Shown piece after piece: positions 3,946 through 29,709 of a stretch of DNA of 64,000 nucleotides; within the stretch, counting starts at the first letter, position 1; the number at the start of each line of letters is the position of its first letter. Below the pieces are notes generated by a model, which saw nothing but the letters and a program-made list of their open reading frames with translations, searched no databases and was not told the origin of the DNA. The stretch comes from an uncultured Propionibacteriaceae bacterium (GTDB lineage: Bacteria > Actinomycetota > Actinomycetes > Propionibacteriales > Propionibacteriaceae), in the NCBI GenBank assembly GCA_945911015.1, contig CAMDZW010000006.1:62001-126000 (forward strand). The letters run 5' to 3'. Made by a program: the position numbers and the translations under genes.

Positions 3946-3976
3946 GGGGCCGACCCGCGGTGTGCGGATCGGCCCC
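3946..3976 (-). terminator. Rho-independent terminator of the flotillin operon
   Basis: The arms GGGGCCGACCCGC (3946-3958) and GCGGATCGGCCCC (3964-3976) form a 13-bp stem with one mismatch and a 5-nt loop, just after the flotillin stop codon on the minus strand. The bases that follow on that strand are pyrimidine-rich (TTCTTCT). Confidence 0.7.
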
Positions 3977-4002
3977 AGCGACGAGCTCAGGTCAGGAGCG
4001 TG

Positions 4003-5535: not shown

Positions 5536-5574
5536 TACTTGTGTTCCTTTCCTCTGGAGGAATCGAGGGACTGG

Positions 5575-6069: not shown

Positions 6070-6159
6070 CCAGGCACCAATCCAACATGTCGGCTGCGGC
6101 TATTGGCCCCAGCCGCAACCCCGGTGCGCCCGACGACCAGTGGTGAGTCTACCGGTTGA

Positions 6160-7560: not shown

Positions 7561-7660
7561 GCGCGGGAGACTACTCCGCTGCGGGAGTGCCCTTGCCCAC
7601 CGTACGGCCCATGGTCATCGCGGCCGGACGGGAACGATCCCAACGCCGATGCTGAAACGC

Positions 7661-7666
7661 TACGCT
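7661..7666 (+). promoter_or_regulatory. -10 box TACGCT of a leaderless transcript
   Basis: TACGCT lies 6 nt before the ATG at 7673. It supports that start over the in-frame ATG at 7649, which has no ribosome binding site. Confidence 0.4.
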
Positions 7667-7672
7667 CGGACC

Positions 7673-8704
7673 ATGCGAGCAATGGTGTGGGTGTTCAGCG
7701 CAGTACTGGTGGTGGGACTGTTCGGCTCCCTGGCTCCGGTGGCACCGGCCGAGGCGGCCGGGCCGATGACGACCACCGCACTCAGCTCGGCCAAGAACAT
7801 CCCACACGGTGACAAGGTCACCGTGTTGGAACGGAGCTTCGACCTGCAGACCGGGGAGTCCCGCCATCTACGGGCCCGGATCGACACCACCAGCACGACC
7901 GACAAGGTGGTCGCACTCACCCTGTCGATCACCTGCTTCGACGCCTCCGGCGCAGAGGTCGACAAGGGCCGCGCGACGGCCCGCAACCATGAGGGCAAGA
8001 ACGCCTCCTACAAGATCCCGGGTCGACTCCCGATCTATGCGGACGCCTTGCTGACCGCTCCCGCGGCCGGCACCTACACCTGTGCCATGCAGGCCTGGAC
8101 CGCCTCCAATGCGACCAGTGACTACCACCTGACCGCCGTTGCCGGTGACACCTGGCTGCAGAGCAGCGACACCGACCAGGTCGGCGCCTACCAGTGGACC
8201 AATCCGGCCTGTGACAGCCAAGGCACTCTGGCGAGCTGTACCTATCTGGGTGCGGGCAACGACCGTGAATGGCTGTTCTACTCCGACGGCACCCCGCGGC
8301 ACGTGTGGACCGCCCGTTCCGATGCGACCGCGGTCGATGTCGCCGCCTCCTACACCCTGACCACCTGCCCCCAGGGGACGGCGTCCTGCCAGAACAATGC
8401 GATTGCGCCGTACCAGAAACCGCGGGGGATCGTCACCATCGTCGATGCGACATTGCAGCTGATCCAGCTCGATGCGACCGGTCACACCTGCCACACCACC
8501 ACCGTGACGACCACGGGCAGGATCACCGATGGTGCGCACCACTATGCCTACACACAGTCGCTGAGCACGGTCCCGATCCGCTCCGACTGCGGCAGTCGCG
8601 ACTTCCTGGTACGGGTGCAACTCGACCACGTCTCCGGGCAGCCGATCAAGATTGACGGGCAACAGAGCGTGGCGCTGTCGACGGCGATCATCAAGAACCG
8701 CTGA
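7673..8704 (+). CDS. Exported protein of unknown function
   Basis: A 343-residue protein when started at the ATG at 7673, which has a TACGCT -10 box 6 nt upstream. Residues 1-31 form a Sec signal peptide (hydrophobic core VWVFSAVLVVGLFGSLAPV, cleavage near AEA-AG). The mature protein is Thr/Asp/Ser-rich with several short beta-like stretches. It has paired cysteines (in ITCFDASG, YTCAMQAW, ACDSQGTLASCTY, TTCPQGTASCQN), suggesting disulfide-bonded extracytoplasmic domains. No family was recognised and no catalytic motif is visible. It is transcribed away from the MFS carrier and toward the end of the large operon. Confidence 0.7.
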   Translation: MRAMVWVFSAVLVVGLFGSLAPVAPAEAAGPMTTTALSSAKNIPHGDKVTVLERSFDLQTGESRHLRARIDTTSTTDKVVALTLSITCFDASGAEVDKGRATARNHEGKNASYKIPGRLPIYADALLTAPAAGTYTCAMQAWTASNATSDYHLTAVAGDTWLQSSDTDQVGAYQWTNPACDSQGTLASCTYLGAGNDREWLFYSDGTPRHVWTARSDATAVDVAASYTLTTCPQGTASCQNNAIAPYQKPRGIVTIVDATLQLIQLDATGHTCHTTTVTTTGRITDGAHHYAYTQSLSTVPIRSDCGSRDFLVRVQLDHVSGQPIKIDGQQSVALSTAIIKNR

Positions 8705-8747
8705 CATTTCACACACCGTGGAACCCTTCCACAGGACGTGAGCTGGG

Positions 8748-9905
8748 TCAGATCACTCCATGCGCGTCGAGGACCCACCGCACCGGGTCCAGGCACCGGA
8801 AGGACGCGATCCCCCGTTTGTGGATCCGTTCTCCCTCGGCGGCCTCGCCGAGCGCCGACACCGCAAAGAATCGGTACGGCAGGCTGTTGCCGGTGTGGGG
8901 TCGGGTGACCGTGCTGATCAGCCCTTGGGCGCCGAGTCTGGTCAGCAGCGACTGCACCTCGAAATGGAGCAGGTTTCCGTCGACGGCGTCATAGTGCGGC
9001 GCGTACATCCCTGGATCGCGCATGAACCCGGCGCCGGTGTTGGACATGATCTTCGACCACGGCCCGCCGTGGACCCGGCGCAGCATCTGCATGGTGTCGA
9101 ACTTCGACAAGATGATCGCGATCTTCGGTTGGCCCGAGCCGATCAGGCGCATCAGGTTCTCCAGCACGACCTGCGGGTCGCCGCCCTCGTGGAGCTGGGT
9201 GGAGACCAGATCGGGAAGCTGCCCGGCGATGCTGGGCACCTGGGTCGGGTCGAACATCGAGAAGATCGCATCGGCATGGGAGAAGAACGACAGGTGCTGC
9301 GCATTGGCGACGGACCGTTCGAGATCCTCGCCGGCGACATCGCGCAGGACCAGGAAGCGTCGCTTGCCCCCGAACACGCCGAGCGACAGCACGAGCGGCT
9401 CGCGTTGGTACGAGTCACTCAGGGTCGCCACCGGGGTCGGCTGGATGATGCCCCGTTTCTCGTACAGCGCCTTCTCGTACACGTTCTGGTAGGTCGCGCG
9501 GCCCCGTTCGGTGGCGAAGATCAGCGACCCGCCCATCTTCTCGACCAGCCGTTCGAGCTGCTTGATCATCACGCCGAGGAAGACACTCTTGCCTGTCGCG
9601 CGGGCCCCGGCCATCGCGACACAGACCGCCTCACCGTCGCGCCAACCGGGCGGCAGCTCGTAGTGACAGGTGGCACAGACCGGCCGCATGGGCTGGCGGC
9701 ACTCGGGGCAGGCCAGGTTGACCGGCGGATTCCAGTCCGGTTGGTCCGGCGGCCGGTTCAGCTTCACGATCCGTCGCGAATGGGTCTGCACACCGGTGAA
9801 CCGAGTGGCGACCAGGTCCGGCTTCAACTCACAGGACTGGTTGACACACCGCCAGGCGTGCAGGTCCGGGGTGATCTGGTGGAAACAGTGGGGACACTTC
9901 GTCAC
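8748..9905 (-). CDS. Zinc-ribbon plus P-loop GTPase-like protein (double-GTPase type)
   Basis: A 385-residue protein. Two zinc ribbons come first: C4/C7/C20/C25 and C66/C69/C77/C80. A P-loop NTPase domain follows with Walker A GARATGKS (100-107), a G3-like DVAGE (189-193) and a G4-like SKFD (267-270). The canonical Thr/Asn of the [NT]KxD motif is replaced by Ser. The pattern resembles the bacterial GTPases that accompany GAP1 proteins in predicted conflict systems (families named double-GTPase). It is the last gene of the eight-gene operon, and its start overlaps the vWA gene stop by 4 nt (ATGA). It is probably the signalling switch of the system. Confidence 0.72.
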   Translation of the reverse strand: MTKCPHCFHQITPDLHAWRCVNQSCELKPDLVATRFTGVQTHSRRIVKLNRPPDQPDWNPPVNLACPECRQPMRPVCATCHYELPPGWRDGEAVCVAMAGARATGKSVFLGVMIKQLERLVEKMGGSLIFATERGRATYQNVYEKALYEKRGIIQPTPVATLSDSYQREPLVLSLGVFGGKRRFLVLRDVAGEDLERSVANAQHLSFFSHADAIFSMFDPTQVPSIAGQLPDLVSTQLHEGGDPQVVLENLMRLIGSGQPKIAIILSKFDTMQMLRRVHGGPWSKIMSNTGAGFMRDPGMYAPHYDAVDGNLLHFEVQSLLTRLGAQGLISTVTRPHTGNSLPYRFFAVSALGEAAEGERIHKRGIASFRCLDPVRWVLDAHGVI

Positions 9906-10930
9906 GCCTGGACTCCCTGTTGACTACGGAAGGACGCCACCAGCGAGGTCACGATCTGCCGTACGGCTTCGCGATCCGATCCGAAGGTGGCGGGCTGACC
10001 TGCGGCCTCCGGCAACCCGATCACGGTCGTCGACAGCCCCTGACCGATGCCCACCTCAGCGACCGAGTGCGGCACCAGACAGATCAGCTCCACCCCGGCG
10101 GCGCCGCTCAGGCTGGCGGCATCAGCGGGAACACCGTCGGTGACGATCCAGCGACGGACCCGGTCGGACTGCGGCCCCACACCGGGCACGTCAAGCACGG
10201 CGCCAGCACGGAATCCGGTGGCCAGGGCCACGTCGGTGCACTGTTCGGTGACGGCGCTGGCGAACCGCTCCGGCGGGGCCGGTGTCAGCCAACGTGGTGT
10301 GTCGGTGACCAGGGCGGCACGCAGGTGGCCGTCCTCGGAGCGGCCGATGACCCGGTGGATACCGGCAATGATGTCGAGCACCTGGGCGACAGTCCCGTCG
10401 GTGTGCAGGCCACGCATCGAGGCGGACAGATCGACCGCGACGACGGATGTGATCGCCTCACCCGGTGGCAGCTGGTCGGTGCCGAGCAACTCCCGGGCAG
10501 CATCACGGGCCCGTTCGGCGACCGGCGGGAGCGGGGCCTCTGCCGCTGGCGGACCGAGCACGGTGACCCGGATGCGGTCCCCCTCCGGCTCGAGGACCAG
10601 GATGTCGCGGTGTCGCAGACCGGACACGTCGACCCCGGACAGCACGCCACGGTCGGGGTCGAGATCTTGACGGGACTCGTAGCCGACCATGAGGTCCAGC
10701 ACCGAGCCGGGACCGAACCGATCGCCGCCCCCGGGGACCGCACGGATCGTGATCGCCTCGCTCACCTTGGGCACGACCATCAGGCCGGCCGTCGGGCTGA
10801 TCACCTGGACCGGCCCGGATGAGGCACTGGCCTCCAGCCGTACGGCGTGGGCGCCGGACTGCAACCGGATCGACACTGGATGGTTCGGCAATGTGATCGA
10901 CTTGCCGCCCTCGAGAACGTAGGTGGGCAT
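9902..10930 (-). CDS. Cytoplasmic vWA-domain protein
   Basis: A 342-residue protein without signal peptide or membrane segment. The N-terminal part (about 1-130) is beta-rich and of unknown fold. A von Willebrand A domain follows from about 160, with a full MIDAS signature: VAVDLSASM (D167-x-S-x-S171), a Thr/Asp-containing ALVTDTP and WIVTDGVP. An intact MIDAS predicts metal-dependent binding of a partner protein. GAGGAG lies before the ATG at 10930. It follows the GAP1-like gene by 72 bp and overlaps the GTPase gene by 4 nt, so it is probably translated together with it. Small vWA proteins are typical partners of NTPases in bacterial multi-protein assemblies. Confidence 0.8.
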   Translation of the reverse strand: MPTYVLEGGKSITLPNHPVSIRLQSGAHAVRLEASASSGPVQVISPTAGLMVVPKVSEAITIRAVPGGGDRFGPGSVLDLMVGYESRQDLDPDRGVLSGVDVSGLRHRDILVLEPEGDRIRVTVLGPPAAEAPLPPVAERARDAARELLGTDQLPPGEAITSVVAVDLSASMRGLHTDGTVAQVLDIIAGIHRVIGRSEDGHLRAALVTDTPRWLTPAPPERFASAVTEQCTDVALATGFRAGAVLDVPGVGPQSDRVRRWIVTDGVPADAASLSGAAGVELICLVPHSVAEVGIGQGLSTTVIGLPEAAGQPATFGSDREAVRQIVTSLVASFRSQQGVQA

Positions 10931-11002
10931 GTGCTCAACTCCTCTCGACCGGGTGTCCAGTCGCCATGGGGCTCATTCTTGCGTGCACGCCTGACAATCG
11001 GG

Positions 11003-14000
11003 TCACTGACCACCTCGGAACAGTCCGCGACGGCGCTCTTCGGCACCGATCAGCTCATTCACCCAGTCGCCGATCAGGCTGTCGACTGCCTTCGTATCCT
11101 GCCCGGGCCGGTCCACGCCCTCCCGGATCCAGCCGGCGAGCTCCTTGCGGTCGGGATGTTCACCCAACGCTCGGTGCAGGGCTTCGGCCAGGACAGGTTT
11201 GCCCTCGGGCCCGATCATCTGGTCCAGCCACTGGACCCGTGCCGCTCCCCCGGTCAGTTCGATCCCGAAGCGTGGGTCGGCGGCAGCAATCCGGCCGGCC
11301 ACTTCGGACAGCTCGAGCTGGGCCAGGTGAGTGGCGACATCGGCGACGAAGTCGGCATCGACCACCAGACGCTGTCCGGCGAACAGTCCCTTCAGACCTT
11401 CGAGCCTGAACTCGGTGTCGGGATCAGCCACCAGCGTGGCGTCGACAGCGGCCAGCACCACGGCCAGTTGGACGTTGCGGGCGGCATCGGAGGCGAACGG
11501 CACCATCGGCACGAAATGCTGGGCCACCGCCGCACCGTGGATCGCGGCGTGGACCATGGTCGCGCGGTGGTCGAGCCGCGACCAGCCCTGCGGCAGAATG
11601 CGCAGCGCAGCGAGCGCGGCCTGTGGCGGACCACCGGCCTGACCGGGCTGCCAGCTGTGGGCGAACCAGGTGCAGACCTGCCCGAACAGGCTGGTCATCT
11701 CCTCGGTCGCCTTCAGGGTGGCCAACCAGGCATTCGGCGGCATGCTCGACTCGAACATCCCCTGCAGGGTGGACAGCGGCTCGACCGGCCACACGACCTG
11801 CTCGAACAGCTCGGCCTGGAGGCCGGTTGCGCCTTCGGCCAAGGCGATCCACCCTGCCATCGGCAGCTCGGACTCATCACCTGCGCGCCATCGGTTGATG
11901 GCGAGCTCGCCACGGAGGCGCCGTTCACCGGTGAGTTCAGCATCAGCAGGAAGCTCAGCCGGCCCAGCCGACAGCAGCCAGGCCAGGAAGTCCGGCGGAA
12001 GGCGGTGGCCGGGGTCGTGCTGGGTCCAGGTCGGGTCCCGTTGCAGGGAGGCCACGACCATGCGGCGGGTGGTTGGTCGGAGTGGTCCGACCGCCTCAGC
12101 CATTCCGGCCGGGTCAGCGCCGAGCTGGCGCAAGATGACCTGATCGGTCAGCGTTTGGAGGGCCTGCGCGGTCTCCTGGTCCTCGGCGCCGATCTGGTCA
12201 AGCAGACCGGACATGCGCAGGGCCGCGACGGAGACCGTACGGGGATCGAACTCGGCCATGTCGTGCAGGTCGCGCGCCATCGTACGAGCCTTGTCGAGCA
12301 GGGCCGGGTCAGCCTCGGCTCCGTCCGGCACCGGCACGCCCTCGGCGCGGGTCAGCCATTCGACATCGGCGACGGCGCGGTGCAGGTAGAGCTGGTTGAC
12401 GATCGGTCGATTCCTGCCATCACAGGCCTGCCAGGCGTCGGCCGTGGTCGAGCCGAGATGTCCCTGGATGATGGCGCTGACTCGTTCCTTGGTTCCCGGA
12501 TCATCCAGCAGGCTTGCCGGGGCGCCGGTGGCCAGGATGGCGGCGGCCTCGTTGAGGACGTCAGAGTTTCCTTCTTCGGTGACCGCCAGTGCCAGCGACC
12601 ACAGCGGATCGGCTGCGGCATCAGTGGCAGTCGAGGCGAGCCGATCGGCGGCGCGCAGGGTCTCGACCGCCCGAGCCGGATCGGCAAACACCCCGGTCAC
12701 CAGACCGCACCACGGGGTCACCGCAATGGCGTCGCCACTGGCCGTACGGTGAGTGCCTCCGGTGTCGCCGAGCTCGACGACCTCGGTCTCGGACATCACC
12801 ACGCACCCCCAGGTCGCGCGGTCACGGGTGACTGCTTCCTGGTCAGTGGCCGGGACGCAGGCGATCTTCACGCCCCTCCCGAACGCCGAGGCGAGCCCGG
12901 TGGGCCGTTCCAGGGTGGAGAAGAACAGTTCGCGGCTCTGCACCGGCGTCATCACGCGGCTCAGCGCGGCCAGCCACTGGGCGGCCCGATCGACACTCTC
13001 GACGAGTAGCACGATCGGTTGACCACCGTCCATGGCGGCGGCGCAGGCATCGAGCAGGACCGTGAACGTGGGCAGCCGCCAGTGCTCGGGATCGGTCAGG
13101 AAGTCGACCACCGGCTGGGTGGTCAGGCCATGGGTGGGCTGCGGAAGTTGTTCGGGCAGGTCGGTCTCGCGGACCTCGTCGGCACCGTACGGGGTGCGCC
13201 ATCCCGAGCTCCGCCACAGTTGGATCGGGCGACCGATGTGGTCGTCTCCACCGGCCCGCCGGTCTCGGTCCATCAGCACATGGGCAAAGACATTGCCGGG
13301 TCGTCCGGAGGCGTCGCTGCCGGCTGGTGCGGTGTGCCACAGGGCAGCTGCGGTCTCCCCCAGCGGTGCGAACAGCAGACGCCGAGGAAAGGCAGCGAGG
13401 TCGGCCGCGGTCGGGAACTTCGGTAGCTCCACGCCACTGTCGAACTGGGTCTGGACCGCATCCCGCAGCCGGGCGATTTCGTTCTCGTCGAGATCGCCGA
13501 GGGTTTCCTTGACACTCCACCCGCCCTGCTGCCCGGGCCGGTCATAGGAGGTGTAGCTCAGTTGGGCGTACCGGCTCAGGCCCTCGCCGGGAGGGCGAAC
13601 CCCTGACGGGCCCGAAGGTGCAGCTGACTGGGGAGGCGGCGCTGCTGCTTGGGCAGCCTGCTGTGCGCCCCAGCCGAATCCGTCGACCTCGACCCCGTAC
13701 GACTGTGGGTCAGCCCCGTACTGATCGGACCCGTACTGATCCGAACCGTACTCACTGTTTCCGTACTGGTCCGTCACGAACTGGTCGGGTGAATACTGGT
13801 CGACTCCGTACTGGGGGTCCAAACCATAGGCCGGGGTCGCGGCAGCGAAGGCCTCGGCATCCTGAGCCGGGGCCTCTCCCCCATACGGCTGGGTCCCGTA
13901 CGGCTGGGTCCCGTACGGCTGGGTCCCGTATTGCTGGGTGTCGTACGGCTGAGTGTCGTAGGACTGGGCGTCGTACGGCTGAGGTTCGGCGCCGTGGCTG

Positions 14001-14323
14001 GCTGGATCAGAGAGGCCGGCCAGGTCAGGGGGCAGCTGGTAGCCGGCCGGGCTCGATGCCTGCTGATGGTCGGGCGACTGGCTGTACGGGGCAGGGCCTG
14101 CGGGTCCGGAGCCTACGGGTCCGGGCGGCGGGGTCTGGTAGTCCGGCGCACCCGGGATCGGGGCGATCGGCTCGTGGCTGGCCTGCTCGAAGACACCCCC
14201 GCTCGGCGCCGGGTAGGCATCGTAGGGCAACTCACCCGGTGCCGGCTGGTTCGGATCGGAACTCGGGGATCCCGGCTCAGCGGGGTCAGGTTGGGACTCA
14301 GGATGCTGCTGGACCATGATCAC
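11003..14323 (-). CDS. GAP1-like GTPase-associated protein with repetitive N-terminus
   Basis: A 1106-residue protein. Residues 1 to about 250 are low complexity, rich in Pro, Gln, Tyr and Gly, with tandem YGTQP and YGSDQ repeats. The folded part begins around RYAQLSYTSYDRPGQQGGW and contains SGRPGNVFAHVLM. Both elements match the N-terminal domain of GTPase-associated protein 1 (a lead YTS...G.GGW strand and a GRxGNxFAHxL motif). The remaining 650 or so residues are mostly helical, with scattered aromatic residues, and probably correspond to the middle and C-terminal regions of GAP1. Its GTG start overlaps the stop of the preceding gene (GTGA); an ATG two codons on is also possible. No catalytic residues are recognised. 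The family call comes from motif memory. Confidence 0.68.
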   Translation of the reverse strand: MIMVQQHPESQPDPAEPGSPSSDPNQPAPGELPYDAYPAPSGGVFEQASHEPIAPIPGAPDYQTPPPGPVGSGPAGPAPYSQSPDHQQASSPAGYQLPPDLAGLSDPASHGAEPQPYDAQSYDTQPYDTQQYGTQPYGTQPYGTQPYGGEAPAQDAEAFAAATPAYGLDPQYGVDQYSPDQFVTDQYGNSEYGSDQYGSDQYGADPQSYGVEVDGFGWGAQQAAQAAAPPPQSAAPSGPSGVRPPGEGLSRYAQLSYTSYDRPGQQGGWSVKETLGDLDENEIARLRDAVQTQFDSGVELPKFPTAADLAAFPRRLLFAPLGETAAALWHTAPAGSDASGRPGNVFAHVLMDRDRRAGGDDHIGRPIQLWRSSGWRTPYGADEVRETDLPEQLPQPTHGLTTQPVVDFLTDPEHWRLPTFTVLLDACAAAMDGGQPIVLLVESVDRAAQWLAALSRVMTPVQSRELFFSTLERPTGLASAFGRGVKIACVPATDQEAVTRDRATWGCVVMSETEVVELGDTGGTHRTASGDAIAVTPWCGLVTGVFADPARAVETLRAADRLASTATDAAADPLWSLALAVTEEGNSDVLNEAAAILATGAPASLLDDPGTKERVSAIIQGHLGSTTADAWQACDGRNRPIVNQLYLHRAVADVEWLTRAEGVPVPDGAEADPALLDKARTMARDLHDMAEFDPRTVSVAALRMSGLLDQIGAEDQETAQALQTLTDQVILRQLGADPAGMAEAVGPLRPTTRRMVVASLQRDPTWTQHDPGHRLPPDFLAWLLSAGPAELPADAELTGERRLRGELAINRWRAGDESELPMAGWIALAEGATGLQAELFEQVVWPVEPLSTLQGMFESSMPPNAWLATLKATEEMTSLFGQVCTWFAHSWQPGQAGGPPQAALAALRILPQGWSRLDHRATMVHAAIHGAAVAQHFVPMVPFASDAARNVQLAVVLAAVDATLVADPDTEFRLEGLKGLFAGQRLVVDADFVADVATHLAQLELSEVAGRIAAADPRFGIELTGGAARVQWLDQMIGPEGKPVLAEALHRALGEHPDRKELAGWIREGVDRPGQDTKAVDSLIGDWVNELIGAEERRRGLFRGGQ
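13716..13980 (-). repeat. Tandem 15-nt repeats in the GAP1-like gene
   Basis: Imperfect 15-nt units encode YGTQP (clearest at 13882-13930, several copies almost identical at the base level) and a related YGSDQ series lies at 13716-13760. Exact repeats of this length can expand or contract by slippage, so copy number may differ between strains. Confidence 0.75.
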
Positions 14324-16647
14324 GCCCGCACAATGAGCTGGGCGACGTCTGGATCAAGCAGCGCCACGGTCTGCAACCGTTCGGGTTCCAGATCGATGAA
14401 CAGCCGAAGGAACCCTGGGCCGGGCGGCATCGCCTCCCAGATCTGGGTGGACCAGTCGGTGGACAGGCTTTCTGGGACGAACCGGCGGGTCGGTTGCATC
14501 GCCATGCCGTTGTTGAGCACGACGTCAACCGGTGTGCCATCGGTGACCTCGAGAGGGAACCGGTCCGGGTTGTGCACTGCCACGAAGGGTGGCCCGGGGG
14601 TCAGGTCCCGTTCGGCCCTGATCCTGATCTGCAGGGTCATGCCACCGCGTTGCAACAATCCGCCGCGGCGGTGCTCGACGGTGTAGGCCAGGCGAAGCAG
14701 ACCCGGGTACTCGATGGAGACCGGTGCGCTCTCGATCCGTTCGCCGGCGCTGTAGGAGACGCCGACCATGTGGAGTGAGCAGCCCAAACTGGGCAGCGGA
14801 GAGGCGAAGTGGATGCCGCCGAGTCGTTCATAGTCCTTGGCAGAGATGTCCACCCGGTGGCGCCGGTCGGTGATGTCGTCAGCAGTCTGGCCCTTGCCGC
14901 CCATCATGACCGAGACCTCGGCCGCCCCCTGGGGCCAGCCAAACTTCAGCACCTGGGTGTGGGTACGCTCCACCACGACCGGATCGCTGACCTGCGGTGT
15001 CCGGACGGCCGGGATGTGACGTCCCACCTGGACCTTGCCGTCGAGCACCGTGACCGGAGTGAAGTAGGTCCGCACCCAGCCACGGGGCCACGGCACATTG
15101 CGCATCGCAGCTCGGTCGCCGTCCCACACGATCGGGTGGACCTGCCGGTTGTCATCGGCCAACCCCATCCGTGGCAAGGCATCCTCAGGCTGGGCCTCGG
15201 CATCGCTGCCGGCGACCGGGGGCCGCTCGGTGCGGAAGATGATCACATGTCCGGCCGCTGGTTTGGTCCAGGTCAGGTCGAACTCGGCGCCATGGGCCGA
15301 ATCGTCCAGAGTGATCTCGAGGTCGTTGACCGGCTCGAGCACAGCCGAGACCAGCAGTTGCTTGGTGACCGGGGCCGACAGACGGACGAGCCCCTCGTAC
15401 TCCGCCTCACAGAAGAACTGATAGACGTAACGACGGCCTCGATCGGCCTCGTTGTCGACGAAGCCACCGAGATTGTCCTGATCGGCAAGGATCCGGTACG
15501 ACGGGTCGGACAACCCCGACTGGGCACGTTCGATGGGCACGCGGAAGATCTGGACCCGTTTGATGCCCGGGAAGACCGACCACTGCCCGATCACCCGGCC
15601 CTCGTCCTCCCGCAGGTCGACCGAATCGAGGGTGGCCACGATCGGGACCTGGGCGTGCAGGATCGGCTGGTTGGCCCGCGCCTCGTCCGCGGTCGCGCCG
15701 GAGTTGCGCCACACCTGGAGGTGGCGGATCGCGGATCGGAAGGCACGGTCGTCAACACAGGAGGTCTCGGTCGTGATCGCCACGAAGTCGGCGTTCTGGG
15801 GGTCGTACGGCGAGTAGTCATCACCCGACACCACCCGGTAGACGACATGCTCGGCTGGGTCCTCGGGAGCCGGCCAGCGCAGCCGCAGACCACCACCGGG
15901 GGCGGACGCAGCCTGGATCCGGCCGACCTCGCCACCCATCTCGGAGAAGTCGAGGGGAGCAAATCTGTCCCACTCGGCCGCGAGCCGCGCCTGGCGCTGC
16001 TCCTCGGTCTCCTTCGGAGGTTCTGCCGGAGCCACGGGCTGCTGACCCGCAGGTTGCGGGCGCGCCTGGGGAGCACCGGACTGGGGAACACCGGACGGGG
16101 GAGCACCTGACTGGGGAGCTGGAGCGCCCGGATGCGGGGTGCCGGTGACCCCGCCGCCGGGGCGGGCCGGGACCTCGGGCTGAGGGGCGAGTGCGGACGG
16201 AGCACTCATCGGAGCCGAGCCTGCCGATCGCTGGTGCGGCGGCGGCTGCGGAGCTGACTGCTGAGCGGTTGGGGCCTGCCCGGGCGCCCCGACCGGCGGC
16301 GCCGCACGACGCGGCATCTGCTGACGTGGGGCCTGCTGCTGGGGTGCGCTCTGTTGTGGAGGTGCGGTCTGCTGCTGGGTCGGACCGGTGACCACGCGGC
16401 CGGTCACCTCCTCGGCGGCGGGGGGACGCTGCACCATCGCACGGGCGATCTGACCGGAGAAGCCCTTCAGTGACTGCGGCAGGACCTCAGCAATCGCTGA
16501 CGGGATGCGGCGGCCCGACCGTGCCACCATCGTCAGATGGATGTCACGAATCGTGTCGGCACCCGGCTGCCCCTGGGCTGCAGCACGGTCGCGCCATGCC
16601 TTCAGCCGCTGCAGCACACCTTCGGTATCTGGTGACCCCGCGCTCAC
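14320..16647 (-). CDS. Beta-sandwich (FN3-like) protein of the GTPase operon
   Basis: A 775-residue protein. Residues 1-70 look helical, followed by a Pro/Gln/Ala-rich linker to about residue 220. From about 240 there are repeated beta-rich modules that resemble fibronectin type III sandwiches, for example GLRLRWPAPEDPAEHVVYRV, DLTWTKPAAGHVIIFR and VLKFGWPQGAAEVSVMMGG. No membrane segment or signal peptide is present, so these modules are predicted to be cytoplasmic, which is unusual for FN3 domains. GGAAGGGAG precedes the GTG start at 16647. The gene lies between the 893-aa membrane protein gene and the GAP1-like gene. A scaffold or ligand-binding role is plausible, but no function is recognised. 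Confidence 0.7.
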   Translation of the reverse strand: MSAGSPDTEGVLQRLKAWRDRAAAQGQPGADTIRDIHLTMVARSGRRIPSAIAEVLPQSLKGFSGQIARAMVQRPPAAEEVTGRVVTGPTQQQTAPPQQSAPQQQAPRQQMPRRAAPPVGAPGQAPTAQQSAPQPPPHQRSAGSAPMSAPSALAPQPEVPARPGGGVTGTPHPGAPAPQSGAPPSGVPQSGAPQARPQPAGQQPVAPAEPPKETEEQRQARLAAEWDRFAPLDFSEMGGEVGRIQAASAPGGGLRLRWPAPEDPAEHVVYRVVSGDDYSPYDPQNADFVAITTETSCVDDRAFRSAIRHLQVWRNSGATADEARANQPILHAQVPIVATLDSVDLREDEGRVIGQWSVFPGIKRVQIFRVPIERAQSGLSDPSYRILADQDNLGGFVDNEADRGRRYVYQFFCEAEYEGLVRLSAPVTKQLLVSAVLEPVNDLEITLDDSAHGAEFDLTWTKPAAGHVIIFRTERPPVAGSDAEAQPEDALPRMGLADDNRQVHPIVWDGDRAAMRNVPWPRGWVRTYFTPVTVLDGKVQVGRHIPAVRTPQVSDPVVVERTHTQVLKFGWPQGAAEVSVMMGGKGQTADDITDRRHRVDISAKDYERLGGIHFASPLPSLGCSLHMVGVSYSAGERIESAPVSIEYPGLLRLAYTVEHRRGGLLQRGGMTLQIRIRAERDLTPGPPFVAVHNPDRFPLEVTDGTPVDVVLNNGMAMQPTRRFVPESLSTDWSTQIWEAMPPGPGFLRLFIDLEPERLQTVALLDPDVAQLIVRA

Positions 16648-16711
16648 TGCGCTCCCTTCCTCAACTCACCCGCTGCACGGTCGCCGGTCGACGCCGGTGT
16701 GCCACCGGGGC

Positions 16712-19393: not shown

Positions 19394-19397
19394 CGGT

Positions 19398-22300
19398 TCA
19401 GAACACCCCACCGTCAGGCATCTGGATGGCGGTCGACTGCGGTGCCCCGCCCAGGTTCTGCACCGGGGCGGCGGCCTGCTGCGAACGTTGCAAGGCGCGG
19501 TCGACGGCCGGGACCAGCTCGCGCACCATGTGATGGATGTCGGCTGCCAGGTCGCGGAAGATCGGCACCTGCGAGGCCTGGTCACGGCTGGTGATCTCGG
19601 AGAAGCTGCCTCCGCCGGGGGCACCGTCCTGTCCTCGGGCCATGAAGTGGGTGCCGGCCAGGTCCCCGACCTGCGACAGCCATTGTTTGGTGGCCTCGGC
19701 CCGTTCCTCCGCTGTGGTGGCGTTGGCAATGGTCGGCACCCGGGAAGGCAGATTCGACGCCGTACGGCCGTCGCGCAGCCAATCGGCCAACCGCTTCTCA
19801 CCCTCCTTCTCCAGGATCCCGGAGGAGGTCCCCAGCGGGTTGGAGTCGTAGATCTCGCGAAGCAGGATGTAGGGCCGCAGGCTCTGCAACACAGGGGTCT
19901 CGTGGACCCGAGTCTGGGCCAACATGATCGACTCCAGCACCGCCGGCAGCCAGTCGTAGGTGGCACGGAAGGCGCCCGGCGGAGTCAGCAGCGGGTTCGG
20001 GAAGGCAGCCCAGTTGCCGTTCTCGCGGTCCCAGATCTCCACCGGACGGTCGTACGGGGAATCCGGCAGCCGCAGCTCGCCGAGGACCTGGCCGAGGAAC
20101 CATCCCGCGACCATGGCTCGCCGTTCGGTGTCGCCCATCGGCAGGCTTGCGGTGAGCGGACGGGCACGACGGTAGGTCCAGAATCCGGCACGCCCGGCTG
20201 GCGGGGTCGAACTCCACTGGACCCCGACAGGCTTGAGCACGGACTCGAAGCACAGCGGCGAGTACAACGGGTAGGACCCGAAGACATCGATACGGCGGGG
20301 ATCGCCCTGGTCGGAGAGCGCCTTGGTCAGGTTCGACATCGATGATTCGTCGATCCGCGGGTTGGACTCGAGCACTCGCTTCAGATCGGCCACGATCGGC
20401 AGATCGGCAAAGGGGATGGTCGAGAACTTGTAGCGGTACTCGACATCGCGGCCGTGGAGAGCCTGGACCGCCTTGTCGTTGACACTGATCAGCGGCATCG
20501 CCAACGACAGCGTCTCGGAGAACTTCGCACCGAGGTCACGGACTCGCTGGGCCTTCTCGGACTCCGGCGCGTCCACACCGGAGACGAAGTCACGCAACGA
20601 GAGTGAGACGAACCGGTCGAAGGACTCGCCGCGGCGGGCGACGAACATCCGCGCCCGGGTGAGGATTTCCGGGGGGCGGACGTGAACGTCGTAGCGGGCC
20701 TGCGACGGCACGATCGAGTCACCGGACAACGGGTCGAAGGCGAACGACCGCGGACGCCAGTCGCTGGTCCGTTCCATCAGCCCGCCCGGGGCCTGCTCGC
20801 CACCGGTGGTCTGCCACTGACCGGACACGACCGAGCTGATGACGGCTTCGCGGGCGCCGTAGAGGTTGTTCGGCCCGTCCGGGATGGCTCGCTGCACATC
20901 AGCGACGAACTGGTCCATGAACTGACGCGAGGTGGTCAGCAGGATCTCGTTGTTCGCCTCGTCGAAGCGACTGGGGACCTGGGCGTCGTGGTCGCTGGGC
21001 CAGGCACCGTACTGGGCGGTGGCCAGCTGTGCCAGGCCGTCATGTCGGACATCGGCGCCACGCACCCCTTCCAGGAGCCGCTGGGTGTCCTTGAGGCTGT
21101 CGGTCAGCTGCGGCAGGACCTCACTGAGCAGTCCCTGGAGCACCTGGGCGACCAGCCCGGACGCGTGGGCATAGATCTGGGTACGGACCTGCCCACGGAT
21201 CCCGGAGACGATCATCTCGTGGATCTGGGCGCCGTTGCTGACCACGCCCTTGGTGCCGGCCATGGTCTGCTGGACCTGCGGTGGGAGGGCGACGATGTCG
21301 GACGGGGTGTGCTGGGCCAGGGATTCCGCCCCCGGGATGACATATTCCTTGAGGTGGGTGGCCAACCGACCGAGCATGCCGGCCGCATAGGGCAGGCCGA
21401 GCCGGGTCAGACTCTCGCTGGTGACGGTCTCGATCCGGCTGAGGACCTCATCCTTCCACCGGAAAACCCATTCGTAGGCGGCCGCATTGGCTGCCTCGGT
21501 GAGCGGGTGGCGGCGGGCGTTGAGCTGGTGCTGCAACATCACCATCCACTGCGAGGCCTGCTGGCCGTCGGGGTTGGGGATGTATCCGGCCACTTCGGTG
21601 TCGGTGACATGGCGGGCCGCCCCCTCGGCCGCCTGACGGGGCAGCGCCGAACCGGTCATCCAGTTGCCGAGCTCCATCTCCGGATTCGGGCCGGCCACCG
21701 GCAGCTGGAGCTGGTTGCACAGTGCGTTCCACTGCGAGTTGAGCAGGCTGTCGAGCTGTTCGAGGCTGGAGGCCGGGTTGCCCGGCTGGAGGTGACCGTC
21801 GAGGAGGCGGTCGACCGAGCTGCGGGCCAGCCGCTGTGCGGCGTACTCGGCATAACGGTCGCGCCCCATGCTGAGCGAGGCAAATCCGAACGAACCCCAG
21901 GGCAACGGATCAGCGTTGGCGGCCCAGCCGAAGTACTTCGGGTCGGGGCTGACCGAGCCAGTGTTGCCGAGGTCGAACTGCTGGAACTGGGCGGTGGCGA
22001 CCGAGGAAGCCATCATGCCGGCCAAGCCGCGGGCCAGGCCACGGTAGACGTCGTCGGGGCGACCGCCACCGAAGGTGGTCTGCTGGGCACCCATCTTGCG
22101 GCCGACCGGGAACACCCGGGCGAAGGGCACCTCCGCACCGACTCCGTCGCGGTGACCGAGGGCGGCCAAGATGTCGACATCGTGTTCCCGGGCTGCACCC
22201 GACTGGGAGGCGACGATCTCGCCGAGCATCGCCAGAGCATTGGCACGGACACCGGTCCGCGCGGATTCAGGGAGTGAGTCGAAGATGTCGGCACTCACCA

Positions 22301-22925
22301 TGAAGACCGCCATCAGGCGCGGGTCGACGCCGGCCAGACTCATCAGACGGCACACATCGAGGGCCATGGATGCGCCGGCACCACCGGCCATCGAGGAGAC
22401 GACCAGGACCAAGGGCGGCTCATTGGGCTCGAATCGAGTGCCCGCCGCCCGCGCAAGCTCAGCCATCTCGGTCGTGGTCTCGACCCGAAACAGGTCGTCG
22501 TAGGCCTGCTGGATGGTCTGGCGGACATCGCTGGCGCGGACCAGGGTGATGGCTCGCCCGACGGCCCGGTACTGACCGGCACCAACCGAGATCGGAGTCG
22601 GCACCGACTGCGGCGATCGCGGCGCCCAGGTGGCGATCTCCTCCAGGCCACGTGCCCCGGCCAGCTTCTGGCTGAGGGCGTGGTCGAGGTCGCCATAACT
22701 GCCCGACTGCGGGCCGAGACCGAGGTAGCGACCGCCCTGGGCCTGGACATTGCCCAGTCCGTTGGGACCCTCTTCCTCGCCTGACGGGACGTCAAGGTGG
22801 ACGAACTGCCAACCTCTCGGCAGGGTCTTGCCCCACACCGCCAGATCGGAACTGAGCTGATCCATCATGTAGGCCAGCGTGGCTCCACCGGAACCACCGC
22901 AGCCCACGACCAGAAAGCGCCTCAC
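19398..22925 (-). CDS. Tubulin-like GTPase family protein (Tubulin_2 type)
   Basis: An 1175-residue protein with an N-terminal tubulin/FtsZ-like nucleotide-binding fold. The first strand and loop read FLVVGCGGSGGATLAYMM (residues 4-21), and the glycine box reads SSMAGGAGAS (177-186) in place of the GGGTGSG of FtsZ. These features fit the large bacterial tubulin-like proteins found in predicted conflict operons, which are much longer than FtsZ because of a C-terminal extension. The glycine box contains Met and two Ala, so polymerisation and GTP hydrolysis may differ from FtsZ. The start is GTG with AGGAGA upstream. It follows the exported vWA gene by 82 bp. Confidence 0.78.
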   Translation of the reverse strand: MRRFLVVGCGGSGGATLAYMMDQLSSDLAVWGKTLPRGWQFVHLDVPSGEEEGPNGLGNVQAQGGRYLGLGPQSGSYGDLDHALSQKLAGARGLEEIATWAPRSPQSVPTPISVGAGQYRAVGRAITLVRASDVRQTIQQAYDDLFRVETTTEMAELARAAGTRFEPNEPPLVLVVSSMAGGAGASMALDVCRLMSLAGVDPRLMAVFMVSADIFDSLPESARTGVRANALAMLGEIVASQSGAAREHDVDILAALGHRDGVGAEVPFARVFPVGRKMGAQQTTFGGGRPDDVYRGLARGLAGMMASSVATAQFQQFDLGNTGSVSPDPKYFGWAANADPLPWGSFGFASLSMGRDRYAEYAAQRLARSSVDRLLDGHLQPGNPASSLEQLDSLLNSQWNALCNQLQLPVAGPNPEMELGNWMTGSALPRQAAEGAARHVTDTEVAGYIPNPDGQQASQWMVMLQHQLNARRHPLTEAANAAAYEWVFRWKDEVLSRIETVTSESLTRLGLPYAAGMLGRLATHLKEYVIPGAESLAQHTPSDIVALPPQVQQTMAGTKGVVSNGAQIHEMIVSGIRGQVRTQIYAHASGLVAQVLQGLLSEVLPQLTDSLKDTQRLLEGVRGADVRHDGLAQLATAQYGAWPSDHDAQVPSRFDEANNEILLTTSRQFMDQFVADVQRAIPDGPNNLYGAREAVISSVVSGQWQTTGGEQAPGGLMERTSDWRPRSFAFDPLSGDSIVPSQARYDVHVRPPEILTRARMFVARRGESFDRFVSLSLRDFVSGVDAPESEKAQRVRDLGAKFSETLSLAMPLISVNDKAVQALHGRDVEYRYKFSTIPFADLPIVADLKRVLESNPRIDESSMSNLTKALSDQGDPRRIDVFGSYPLYSPLCFESVLKPVGVQWSSTPPAGRAGFWTYRRARPLTASLPMGDTERRAMVAGWFLGQVLGELRLPDSPYDRPVEIWDRENGNWAAFPNPLLTPPGAFRATYDWLPAVLESIMLAQTRVHETPVLQSLRPYILLREIYDSNPLGTSSGILEKEGEKRLADWLRDGRTASNLPSRVPTIANATTAEERAEATKQWLSQVGDLAGTHFMARGQDGAPGGGSFSEITSRDQASQVPIFRDLAADIHHMVRELVPAVDRALQRSQQAAAPVQNLGGAPQSTAIQMPDGGVF

Positions 22926-23007
22926 AGTTCAGTCTCCTCAGTCGTCATGCCGGTGTTGCGTCTCATCATCTGCAGCGTACGGGGCCCAAGCTCATCGTGA
23001 GCCAAGG

Positions 23008-26000
23008 TCACCTGCCCGAATTGTCTCCGAACTCGAACGGATTGCGGATCTGTGTCCCAGCCGGCGGCGCCTCGGGTCGGAACTGCTCGGCAGCGGACGG
23101 GCCGCTGGACGGCGGCTGAGCGGACGATTCCGCCTGCTGACCCTCAACCGGAGGCTGGCCCTGCCCCGGAGGCTGCTCCTGAACCGGAGGCTGACCCCAC
23201 GGAGGTTGTGGAGCCGAGGGGGCCTGCTGCGGTTGCTCCCATGGCGCGGCCTGAGGCGCCTGCTGGCCCCAGGGCGCCTGGGGTGCCGGTTGTGGCGCCT
23301 CCGCAGCCGACTGCTGTGGATCCGCCGACGGCGGGCCGGACGGCTGGACGTGCGGCTGGGCGGGCGGAGTCGGCTGGGGTGCAGCCTGCTGCGCCTGTTG
23401 TGCGTACGGATTCGGCCCATCCCCACCGAACGGGTTCGCCCCGAATGGGTTGGACTCGTGGGGACTGGCGCTGACCGAGCTGGTCGGAGCACCGGCTGAC
23501 AGGGCGCTGGCAGGTGTGGCCGGGCCGCTGGCTGGTGTGGCCGGGCCGCTGGCTGGGGCATTCGACGGTGTACCCGTCACGCCCGCCGGTGCGGGTCCGG
23601 GTGAGGGGGCACCTGCGGGAGCGGGCCCGCCGAAGGGTCCCCCGGCGGACGGTTCACCGAACGGATTGGGGCCGGCCGGGCCGCCCATGTCGGGCCCGAA
23701 GTCGAACGGCGCCGGGCCACCGGGCTGCGGCCCACCGGGGCCACCCTCGGGCCCGCCGAAGGGTGAGCCGCCGTCCCCGCCGGACGATGCGCCGACCTGC
23801 ATGCGCATGGCGTCGAGCACGTCGGGCACGCGGGCATTGATGTCGTCGACCAGCTTTTCGCGCAGCTCGTCGGGGGCGTCTGCCCCGACCAGCAACAGCA
23901 CCGAGGCGCTGGTCGCCGGCCCGTTCGGATCATGGAGCAGCACCCAGTGGTTGTGCACATTGAGTGGCAGCCGGGCGTACGACTCCTTGCCGCGGGGGCG
24001 GGTGTCCGACGACGACGCACCGATCCGGCCGGGTGTCTCCACCCGGACGTGGCCCTCGCCGAAGGGAGAGCCGCCCATCTTGGCGGTGAGAGTCGCCGAT
24101 GCCGCCTGTGCCGTACGAGATCCGTTGGCGGCCAGCGGCACCATGCCGGAGGTCAGATCGCGATCCTTCAGCTCGAACCGGCCACCGTCGCGGATGACCT
24201 GTCCGGCCTCGACCTGGACCGGGAACTCCTGGCCGAGTAGCGCCCGGCCCGGAATCTTCGCGGTCAGGAACTTCAACAGGTACAGCAGACCGAGCGGGAT
24301 GCCCGGGCCGAGCAGAGCCGCCACGATCAGTGTCAGGGTGAAGTTGACCGGGTTGAGTGGCTTGGCGAAGTTGGCGGTCGCCGAGGCAGTTGCGTCCTGG
24401 ACCCGGTCCAGCTCTCCGATCGGGGCGATCCGGACGGTGAACTCGGTGTTCAGCGTGCCGTTGTCGACGCCATCGGTGGTCAACTGCACCGGCAGTGTCG
24501 CGCTCTGCCCCTCAGGCACCTCGAGGCAAGTTTCGGCAGAGTTGTGGGTGGAGGTGATCGCGATGTTGCCCAGGTTCTCGGGCCCGGCGAGCATGTTCGG
24601 TGACCCGTTGCCCTCGACCCAGACGCAACCGGGACCCGTGACCGTGAGCTCGCCGGACACACCGTCCGCTCGCCCTTCGAGCGAGCCAAAGTTCACCTGG
24701 CCGCTGATCGTCGGATAGCCGGGCGGCGGGACGATCTGCACCGGGATCCGCACTGACTGCGGCTCGAGTTCGGTGCCCGGCACGGTCTTGCCGTCGGCAT
24801 CGGTCGCATCCTTGGTCGTGATGCTCAGCGACAGGACCAGAGTTCCCTTGCCCGGGGCGACATTGGTCAGGTCGAGGTCAATCGGTGCCGCGATTGCCGG
24901 CCCGTCCAGGCCCTGGGCGACAGGGATCTCCTGGCCGTCCGGCGTGCGCAGGGTGGCGTTCAGGTCGACCTTGCCGAGCAGCTTGGTCGGGTCGATGCTG
25001 TCACCGTCGGCGTTGACCAGACCGAGCTGGATCTGGTTCATCTCTCCCGAGCGGATCTGGGCCTGGTCTGCCTCGGGCCAGGTCGGGAAGACGTCGCCGG
25101 AGATCGCGATCGAGGTGCGGGACTTGCCATTGGGTGACTGACCGGTCGGGTCGACGAAGACCACCGACCACGGGCCGGCCCAGGCTTCGGAGCCAGCGGC
25201 GGCGGACATGTCGATGACGACTGAGTGCTCCGACTGCCACGAGTGCTCGAGTTTCACGCCACCGGACTCATTGGTGGTGGTGTCGCCGATCGTGCCGCGG
25301 TCGAGCTTGATCTCCTCCCCCTGAGGGGTGACCAGGTAGACCTCGGCCTTGGCGACATCAGAGCTGCCGAGGATGTGGACCGACTGGACCGAGTCGTCCA
25401 GCACGAAGGTGTGACGCTCCTCAGGGCAGACATCGCCCTGACAGACGCCACCCTCGGTGTCCTTGCGTTCCTGGTTCGGCGTGGCGAACCGGTCGAACTC
25501 GAACAGCAATTCATCGATGTCAGCGGCCTCGGTGAAGCTGCCGGGCGGATCGGTGATCTTGCCACATTTCTGACCGCCGGCATCCCCGCCGAGCGAGATC
25601 GATTTCAACAGGGTGTAGTCGGGTTTCTCCTCACCACGCAGGCCGACCCCGAACACGGTGATGCCGGAGGATCGCAGCTGATCGGCCAGACCGCCGTCGC
25701 GGCAGATCTGCCGCTCGGCCTCGGCCTCGGCCGTCTTCTCAGCAGCATCAGTGGTGATCTTGGTGTCGGGCAGGTACGGCTTGGTGTCGCCGTACTTCTC
25801 CACCAGCTCAGGCGTGCGGCGAGCGTCGAGGTCGAGGCTGCCGTCGGTGATCCACACCAGCGCCTGGCAACGGTCGCCGTCCGGGTTGTGCTCAGCCAGA
25901 GCCCGACGGGAACCCTCGAGGGCCATCCAGTAGTCGGTCTCCCAGCCGTAGGGGCGCTTGTCGAGATCGGCGAAGCTATCGACGGTCTCGAGTGTCTTCT

Positions 26001-26358
26001 TCAGACCGGAGTCGTCGAGCGCAGTCCAGTCCTGGGCCTGCACGTAGTGGTGGGAGAAACCGGCGACGCTGACGTCGAGGGTCACATTGGCGCGCTTGGC
26101 AAAGGAGTTCAACTGGGTGAGCAGATATTTCGCCGAGGTGACGCGGTTGTTGTCAGGGTCGTTCTCATTCAGACTGGCGGTCTCGTCGATGACGAGCAGG
26201 ATGTCGCCGGCCTTCTCGGCGACCAGGCAGCCGCCATAGACGTCGACGGCAGAGTCGGCCGCGTGGGCGGGTGTCACGCCGGGCAGGCCGAGCGCGGCCA
26301 ACAACCCGACCAGCAGTGCCCAGATCCCCAGTCGACCAGGTCGCGATCGGTTCTTCAT
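23008..26358 (-). CDS. Exported, membrane-anchored vWA protein
   Basis: A 1116-residue protein. The ATG at 26358 gives a Sec signal peptide (residues 1-33, hydrophobic core GIWALLVGLLAALGLPGV, cleavage near AHA-AD). A vWA domain follows with a MIDAS-like VIDETAS (from D58) and WITDGSLD. Cys-containing segments suggest disulfides. Beta-rich modules continue to about residue 660. A single membrane helix lies around 665-695 (FTLTLIVAALLGPGIPLGLL). The cytoplasmic part holds a small domain, then a Pro/Gln/Gly-rich tail from about 900. The topology puts the vWA outside and the tail inside. It is the second gene of the operon, 8 bp after the small membrane protein gene. Confidence 0.8.
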   Translation of the reverse strand: MKNRSRPGRLGIWALLVGLLAALGLPGVTPAHAADSAVDVYGGCLVAEKAGDILLVIDETASLNENDPDNNRVTSAKYLLTQLNSFAKRANVTLDVSVAGFSHHYVQAQDWTALDDSGLKKTLETVDSFADLDKRPYGWETDYWMALEGSRRALAEHNPDGDRCQALVWITDGSLDLDARRTPELVEKYGDTKPYLPDTKITTDAAEKTAEAEAERQICRDGGLADQLRSSGITVFGVGLRGEEKPDYTLLKSISLGGDAGGQKCGKITDPPGSFTEAADIDELLFEFDRFATPNQERKDTEGGVCQGDVCPEERHTFVLDDSVQSVHILGSSDVAKAEVYLVTPQGEEIKLDRGTIGDTTTNESGGVKLEHSWQSEHSVVIDMSAAAGSEAWAGPWSVVFVDPTGQSPNGKSRTSIAISGDVFPTWPEADQAQIRSGEMNQIQLGLVNADGDSIDPTKLLGKVDLNATLRTPDGQEIPVAQGLDGPAIAAPIDLDLTNVAPGKGTLVLSLSITTKDATDADGKTVPGTELEPQSVRIPVQIVPPPGYPTISGQVNFGSLEGRADGVSGELTVTGPGCVWVEGNGSPNMLAGPENLGNIAITSTHNSAETCLEVPEGQSATLPVQLTTDGVDNGTLNTEFTVRIAPIGELDRVQDATASATANFAKPLNPVNFTLTLIVAALLGPGIPLGLLYLLKFLTAKIPGRALLGQEFPVQVEAGQVIRDGGRFELKDRDLTSGMVPLAANGSRTAQAASATLTAKMGGSPFGEGHVRVETPGRIGASSSDTRPRGKESYARLPLNVHNHWVLLHDPNGPATSASVLLLVGADAPDELREKLVDDINARVPDVLDAMRMQVGASSGGDGGSPFGGPEGGPGGPQPGGPAPFDFGPDMGGPAGPNPFGEPSAGGPFGGPAPAGAPSPGPAPAGVTGTPSNAPASGPATPASGPATPASALSAGAPTSSVSASPHESNPFGANPFGGDGPNPYAQQAQQAAPQPTPPAQPHVQPSGPPSADPQQSAAEAPQPAPQAPWGQQAPQAAPWEQPQQAPSAPQPPWGQPPVQEQPPGQGQPPVEGQQAESSAQPPSSGPSAAEQFRPEAPPAGTQIRNPFEFGDNSGR

Positions 26359-26366
26359 GCTCGTCC

Positions 26367-26960
26367 TCACAGGTGTCCCACCCAATCCGCAATCCGCCAG
26401 GCAGCGACGATCGCGCCAGCAAAGCACAACACCAGCGCCACGACATACATCGGCTTCACCCAGCCCTGGGCCAGGTAGACCGCTCCGGTGCGGGCCTTCA
26501 GGTCGGTGGTGGTGAAGAAGGCCAGTGCCCCGATCCCGATCGGGCCGGCCACCACCCAGGCGGCGATGGCCACCGGTGGCATACCGCCCAGCAGCAGTGC
26601 GACGACGATGCTGACCACGGCCAGCCCGACCGCCAGGAACAACCACTGCACTGGTGGACGTGAGGTCTCCAGGACGGCGACCGGTCCCGATTCGCCGAAG
26701 GCGGCCGGTACACCGGGCATCGCCGGGGTGTTGGCCTCGAGCGAGCTCTGACCGAAGGGGTCAGCTCCGGGCGCGAACGGCGCTGCTGGACCCTGGTCGA
26801 CCGACGCCACCGTGGCCGGGGTCTGCGCGCTCGCCGCGAATGGGGCGTTGCCGCCCTGACCGAAGCCAGGTTGGGCAGACCCGAAGCCGCCTGGTGCAGG
26901 CTGAGGGGCGGAATTCTGCGACTGCTGGTCGCTGAAATCCCATGGATTCTGGTCCGACAT
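26367..26960 (-). CDS. Small membrane protein, first gene of the GTPase operon
   Basis: A 197-residue protein. The first 95 or so residues are Gln/Pro/Gly/Ala-rich, like the tails of the exported vWA and GAP1-like proteins. Three hydrophobic helices follow (VQWLFLAVGLAVVSIVVALL, MPPVAIAAWVVAGPIGIGAL, and MYVVALVLCFAGAIVAAW). No known family was recognised. It opens the operon, about 30 nt downstream of a TATACT -10 box. The shared low-complexity composition suggests it could co-assemble with those two proteins. Confidence 0.7.
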   Translation of the reverse strand: MSDQNPWDFSDQQSQNSAPQPAPGGFGSAQPGFGQGGNAPFAASAQTPATVASVDQGPAAPFAPGADPFGQSSLEANTPAMPGVPAAFGESGPVAVLETSRPPVQWLFLAVGLAVVSIVVALLLGGMPPVAIAAWVVAGPIGIGALAFFTTTDLKARTGAVYLAQGWVKPMYVVALVLCFAGAIVAAWRIADWVGHL

Positions 26961-26996: not shown

Positions 26997-27002
26997 AGTA
27001 TA
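26997..27002 (-). promoter_or_regulatory. -10 box TATACT of the eight-gene operon
   Basis: On the minus strand TATACT stands about 37 nt before the ATG at 26960, in the 86-bp gap to the rhomboid gene. No clear -35 hexamer is visible. This is the best promoter candidate for the 18-kb operon. Confidence 0.45.
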
Positions 27003-27658: not shown

Positions 27659-27706
27659 GTCGAACAGCCTAGGCGTCCCCACCGACAGTGCAGCCGGGCG
27701 CAGGGC

Positions 27707-29635: not shown

Positions 29636-29709
29636 CACGTCGCAGTCTTCCACTGCGGCCCGCCTGCGCGCCGCAGTCCACGCCGACACCTCCGCGATCC
29701 ACACTTGCC

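Follow-up and report, generated by a model that had tools for sequence, protein, structure and literature searches.

The window analysed here, a stretch of 64,000 nucleotides from an uncultured Propionibacteriaceae bacterium (host genome 3.7 Mb), contains an operon of eight minus-strand genes (26960-8748). Sequence comparison gives good support for placing this operon in the actinobacterial tubulin theme of the GAP1-N2 GTPase-centric systems, which were described from genomes and for which a role in conflict was proposed (Kaur 2020, PMC7159879). The best explanation of the operon as a whole, towards which we lean, is a GTPase-gated tubulin-like assembly under the membrane that answers envelope or invader stress. 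This kind of system is already described; what is added here is a link to Ter genes, a complete but split tubulin fold predicted by modelling, and the co-conservation of the tubulin-like protein and the GTPase. Novelty of the layout outlined in a sequence-only reading of this DNA is not supported, since it is present in Kaur 2020 and partly in Makarova and Koonin 2010 (PMC2875224).

The gene set and its spacing were confirmed by the reading frames. From the first gene, SMP, to the last, the GTPase, the junctions measure 8, 82, 4, 64, -4, 72 and -4 bp, i.e. four of 8 bp or less or overlapping and the remainder of 64-82 bp, as the sequence-only reading had stated. All eight genes display the coding pattern typical of a high-GC genome, and codon-position GC favours the called frames over long antisense frames. 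The ATG at 19393 was chosen as start of MEM (893 aa) and the GTG at 14323 as start of GAP1, for which an ATG is available two codons further on. Relatives were collected as 46 loci from a search of GTDB species genomes, where the TUB query was a 985-aa form and not the full 1175 aa. The grouping is far beyond chance, since the same genes are colinear in nearly all complete loci among these relatives, which span Propionibacteriaceae, Mycobacterium, Rhodococcus, Gordonia, Williamsia, Nocardia, Corynebacterium, Actinomyces and Microbacteriaceae; the homologues are thus not scattered. Some loci of Corynebacterium and Actinomyces show just a gap of about 900-980 bp ahead of the GTPase, from which vWA2 was inferred. 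Judged by the tubulin gene, Candidatus Avipropionibacterium avicola, also of the Propionibacteriaceae, is the nearest relative with a name (91-92% identity). Across the 197 genomes of the window's family, 23 of the 26 that bear Tubulin_2 also carry GAP1-N2, itself present in just 29 of 197, and the two genes lie about 7-10 kb apart on shared contigs. The co-occurrence of tubulin-like and GAP1-like genes, proposed as a check in the sequence-only reading, is found both in the family and in the colinear loci.

Table 1. Genes and other features of the operon (window coordinates, except for the last row).
Feature	Position	Strand	Description and basis
SMP	26367..26960	-	197-aa membrane protein; reading frame and hydrophobicity
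vWA1	23008..26358	-	exported 1116-aa vWA protein; Pfam, MIDAS, transmembrane prediction
TUB	19398..22925	-	1175-aa tubulin-like protein, Tubulin_2/FtsZl1; Pfam PF13809 and structure model
MEM	16712..19393	-	893-aa membrane protein; transmembrane prediction and structure model; no known family
FN3-like	14320..16647	-	775-aa beta-rich protein; occupies the position of the FNIII/HRDC component of Kaur 2020
GAP1	11003..14323	-	1106 aa; Pfam GAP1-N2 and GAP1-M
vWA2	9902..10930	-	342 aa, predicted cytoplasmic; vWA closest to the TerF type by profile comparison
GTPase	8748..9905	-	385-aa DO-GTPase2; Pfam and motifs
TATACT	26997-27002	-	candidate -10 element, 36 nt before the first ATG (SMP)
Ter genes behind GTPase, L083 (Salinibacterium) and L084 (Microbacteriaceae VKM Ac-2855)	3092-9541 (L083)	same as GTPase	Pfam on the Salinibacterium copy

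The switch components largely correspond to those of the published class. The GTPase matches Pfam DO-GTPase2 (PF19993) at 1.9e-6 and 28.1 bits (cut-off 27), and carries a P-loop GARATGKS, a Walker B motif RDVAGED and SKFD; these motifs are kept in 17 of 17 sequences of at least 300 aa, RDVAGED being invariant. Its N-terminal CxxC zinc ribbons (CPHC...CVNQSC and CPEC...CATC) can be read directly and correspond to a weak match to Pfam DZR (0.0067, below cut-off). GAP1 matches GAP1-N2 (3e-21) and GAP1-M (1.3e-9) behind a low-complexity N-terminal extension. All 28 orthologues compared have GAP1-N2, and 25 of the 28 have GAP1-M; the region where GAP1-C would be expected has no Pfam match in GAP1 and is highly diverged. 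vWA2 is composed of an N-terminal domain of undefined type and a vWA domain with a conserved metal ion-dependent adhesion site (MIDAS; DxSxS at 167-171). The TerF-type vWA family PF10138 was detected in 6 of 27 vWA2 orthologues (best 8.9e-4), the window copy not being among them; set against real TerF proteins, the vWA domain scored 93.6% probability, and by these profiles it most closely resembles the TerF type. A TerD-like N-terminus of vWA2, suspected by eye, found no support in profile comparison with TerD (0.1% probability). The GTPase, GAP1-like and two vWA identities are thus borne out. The operon shares with the Kaur 2020 system, also actinobacterial, a zinc-ribbon DO-GTPase with the conserved Glu of Walker B, a GAP1 protein with N2 and M domains, a single tubulin gene, a membrane-bound extracellular vWA and a beta-rich protein. 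The text of Kaur 2020 contains no TerD link, TerF-type vWA, MEM or SMP. None of the operon proteins exceeded the NCBIfam cut-offs, and the PDB provided no convincing distant sequence relatives for them, nor any sequence match for the FN3-like protein.

The tubulin-like protein TUB matches Pfam Tubulin_2 (PF13809) over profile positions 1-355 of 356 (3.6e-44, 151.9 bits), and its Gly-rich loops GCGGSG and AGGAGAS are invariant among orthologues. Its AlphaFold model (pLDDT 87) was compared with known structures using VIA: CetZ aligned with Z 24.0 and a root-mean-square deviation (rmsd) of 3.6 over 306 of 342 residues, across model residues 1-913, and TubZ, FtsZ and tubulins reached Z 18-22. The GTPase half occupies residues 1-376 of the model; about 240 aa of helical insert come next (approximately 387-623), and the C-terminal elements of tubulin lie further on. 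In the model the tubulin fold of TUB is accordingly complete but interrupted by this insert, and family match and predicted fold together uphold its tubulin-like identity. Makarova and Koonin 2010 (PMC2875224) could not identify T6-H7 and the C-terminal domain of FtsZl1 by sequence, whereas the match of the TUB model to CetZ appears to include these parts. The tubulin of Kaur 2020 was given a C-terminal helical domain (PMC7159879), in contrast to the split fold predicted here, which goes beyond the texts of both papers. While its predicted fold is like that of CetZ, TubZ and FtsZ, TUB differs from these proteins in its size, in the helical insert, in C-terminal additions and in its setting in a membrane operon. 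One genome of genus g4 has a second Tubulin_2 gene (G315:C1:2276727-2277782), distant from the operon.

Three of the encoded proteins carry predicted transmembrane or hydrophobic segments, in agreement with the membrane anchoring previously proposed. SMP has a Pro/Gln/Gly-rich N-terminus and two hydrophobic segments in the window copy (2-4 in orthologues). vWA1 is predicted from hydrophobicity to possess a signal peptide, one transmembrane segment near 671-689 and a Pro-rich cytoplasmic tail; its vWA domain has a full MIDAS of conserved residues (D58, T60, S62, T141, D172) and matches VWA_2 at 4.2e-5 and 24.6 bits, under the 27-bit cut-off. MEM consists of an alpha/beta N-terminal domain, a long helical middle with two transmembrane segments by hydrophobicity (542-560 and 568-586) and an alpha/beta C-terminal part. 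No Pfam family matched SMP, MEM or the FN3-like protein. For the MEM model (pLDDT 82) Foldseek returned no match below 1e-3; two CetZ structures came top in VIA (Z 10.1, rmsd 12.4; Z 8.6, rmsd 5.0), followed by small GTPases at about Z 7, in a ranking where unrelated rows reach Z 7-8, so that the CetZ rows are a lead only. On this weak lead, one possible identity of MEM is a second tubulin-like subunit in the membrane, free of nucleotide. Orthologue comparison reveals no conserved glycine-rich nucleotide loops in MEM. A sequence relationship of MEM to TUB was rejected, profile comparison finding no similarity. Together, a Tubulin_2 protein, an exported vWA, a GTPase and membrane proteins also make the operon resemble those of the FtsZl1/Tubulin_2 family, in which vWA and GTPase genes were read as serving membrane remodelling (Makarova and Koonin 2010, PMC2875224).

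Pairwise identities among relatives indicate that TUB and the GTPase are the slowest-evolving parts and diverge in step (TUB/GTPase 0.35/0.40, 0.47/0.48, 0.54/0.52, 0.65/0.65, 0.76/0.75 and 0.89/0.90). GAP1 and vWA2 evolve fastest, GAP1 being barely alignable past residue 600. These rates suggest a working core of GTPase and tubulin, with the GAP1 tail as an adapting surface. In two Mycobacterium loci GAP1 is only about 360 aa long (L018, 18191-19285; L035, 18194-19270), and the fast-evolving C-terminal part of GAP1 seems to be dispensable. The apparent co-conservation of tubulin and GTPase is likewise not found in the texts of the two earlier papers.

We then considered the distribution of TerD relative to the operon. 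TerD occurs in 23 of the 42 named operon genomes (25 of 46 in the search that included the window's genome) and, in 21 of these 23, lies at most 5 kb from the operon, where 0.34 would be expected; for L026 and L029, the two without a match, the count does not extend to the downstream flanks. When seven genus-level groups are each scored by their most distant member, proximity holds in six. In two further genera, 10 of 10 genomes have their sole TerD gene immediately after the GTPase, and TerD-linked operons fall in three separate groups on the TUB tree. In two Microbacteriaceae genomes, L083 and L084, three TerD genes stand immediately behind the GTPase on the same strand, along with DUF475/TerC, C-C_Bond_Lyase and a gene with StiP, PRTase_2, TRSP and PELOTA domains. 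This set amounts to a Ter biosynthetic operon joined to that of the tubulin. These genes, together with the TerF-type vWA, are what the operons have in common with Ter systems (Anantharaman et al. 2012), as far as these are represented in PMC7824862; tubulin, GAP1 and DO-GTPase are not recognised Ter parts in the texts covered. Such adjacency in relatives suggests what the operon works with. No earlier report of TerD with tubulin or GAP1 was found in the literature covered; the main Ter paper is outside that coverage, so an earlier description of the link there is possible. In L094 a second GAP1-N2-like protein (809 aa, containing QLTYTSFDRPGTAGGGGW) is encoded downstream, behind a TerD gene (about 7085-9511; assigned from sequence).

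In the explanation we favour, vWA1 would bind a cation-dependent ligand or disturbed cell wall outside the cell, and SMP and MEM would relay its signal through the membrane to cytoplasmic complexes. The DO-GTPase would act as a threshold switch, restrained or loaded via GAP1, the FN3-like protein and vWA2; upon its firing, TUB would use GTP to assemble a polymer or ring beneath the membrane, which in turn would remodel or seal the envelope. In genomes that possess Ter genes, as the window's does not, the operon would act together with TerD and the Ter nucleoside-metabolite pathway, and for this reason envelope, xenobiotic or invader stress is a more likely trigger than normal division. One proposal for Ter systems brings together nucleoside signals, binding by TerD and structures under the membrane which exclude phages or xenobiotics (PMC7824862). 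This scheme would fit the Ter-linked operons and, by homology, the Ter-less version of the window. More tentatively, operon and Ter response could form one coupled envelope-defence machine, in which TerD or a Ter-made nucleoside signal acts on the TerF-type vWA, this on the GTPase switch, and the switch on the tubulin-like sub-membrane polymer.

Several observations weigh against this explanation. The window's own genome has no TerD, and neither have the operon-bearing genomes of Corynebacterium, Mycobacterium sensu stricto and Actinomyces; Ter therefore cannot be a requirement. In the largest-genome families sampled, Tubulin_2 systems do not adjoin TerD. The counterpart of the FN3-like protein in Kaur 2020 has FNIII repeats and, in the actinobacterial theme, a fused HRDC; Pfam detected neither in 35 orthologues of the FN3-like protein. 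Kaur 2020 also tied the systems to a multicellular habit (PMC7159879), which the hosts often do not have, Corynebacterium and Propionibacteriaceae fitting poorly. Foldseek placed FtsZ and CetZ at the top for the TUB model with E values of only about 1e-3, filament formation by TUB is assumed from its modelled fold, and the literature gave no wet-lab data on any component of the operon.

The distribution of the operon is patchy, Tubulin_2 being present in 13 of 197 genomes of the order and 23 of 346 of the class. With rare exceptions the operon lies on the chromosome. The TUB tree broadly tracks families, and several genera of the window's family share one housekeeping location by prs, rplY and pth (genes named from sequence), which makes long vertical inheritance with losses likely. 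Three other identities were rejected: a known defence system, none of the eight proteins being matched by PADLOC 2.0; part of a defence island, the 96 flanking proteins of window and relatives giving nine PADLOC models of one protein each; and phage or plasmid cargo, given that no phage record contains the tubulin, plasmid occurrences are limited to two Rhodococcus megaplasmids, and PHROGs gave no match.

The role proposed by Kaur 2020, an anti-phage conflict system in which variable GAP1 and FN3 parts sense an invader and flip the GTPase, with a tubulin multimer then containing the infection or killing the cell, is in our view rather unlikely. The operon shares the core of the published conflict class, the patchy distribution of Tubulin_2 suits this role, no other part evolves nearly as fast as the GAP1 C-terminus, which two mycobacterial loci lack, and Ter systems themselves have been tied to phage exclusion (PMC7824862). 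However, the supposed effector, tubulin, is the most conserved protein rather than a variable one, the operon occupies housekeeping loci in several lineages, and the PADLOC and phage searches described above provide no support. We regard as improbable a constitutive machine in which GTPase and tubulin shape the membrane and organise the envelope in normal growth, independently of stress or invaders, as Makarova and Koonin 2010 proposed for FtsZl1 (PMC2875224). Their interpretation of operons with vWA and GTPase genes, the slow evolution of TUB and the GTPase, and the position of the window operon behind rhomboid and penicillin-binding-protein genes and near flotillin all speak for it. Yet the operon is absent from most relatives, even members of the same family, and so is not needed for growth, and the repeated Ter link indicates stress.

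Concerning the surroundings of the operon, a rhomboid protease gene (27047-27682) lies 86 bp upstream on the same strand and is itself preceded, with short gaps, by a penicillin-binding protein gene (27707-29704, minus strand); apparently the same pair precedes the operon in the relative locus L015. The rhomboid gene could share the operon transcript, in which case transcription may begin further upstream. The TATACT box that the sequence-only reading placed ahead of all eight genes is present, as a putative promoter element, but chance alone would give about one such hexamer in 64 kb (mean 0.8), and scanning for a sigma-70 consensus detected no promoter at this site upstream of SMP. Downstream, a flotillin gene (Band_7, Flot; 4003-6069, minus strand) adjoins a gene for a small membrane protein of NfeD-like appearance. 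Very long plus-strand antisense frames at 10847-13009, 20682-22277 and 2500-6159 are an artefact of high GC; those tested match no family. Mrp-type antiporter genes, assigned from sequence, adjoin the operon upstream in Corynebacterium (L040-L043, L052) and downstream in an Enemella-type genus (g10), L073 and L082, which may be chance. In several Rhodococcus, a gene for an SMP-like small membrane protein (MTQNDNPWFGG..) lies directly 3' of the GTPase (L097, 15361-15951, minus strand; L099; L102), and in Rhodococcus sp. JCM 9791 (L055, 214-13195) the TUB and MEM frames are broken (454 and 546 aa), either because the copy is decaying or through errors in the draft assembly. In Rhodococcus and Williamsia the operon is flanked by members of a protein family about 290-480 aa long (KDATKW..ALARISTFRPLTDGLAVTNRR; L027, 4993-5862; L092, just behind the GTPase), possibly a further partner; the L027 member has no Pfam match.

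In the literature covered, no mechanism was found for either the Ter response or the FtsZl1/GAP1 operons. The repeated physical link, with the TerF-type vWA as common part, provides a concrete testable hypothesis for both. Cultured hosts exist in Rhodococcus jostii, Gordonia and Corynebacterium, which makes deletion, imaging and in-vitro polymerisation feasible. The complete split tubulin fold, if true, would settle the question raised in 2010 of whether FtsZl1 proteins retain the parts needed for filaments.

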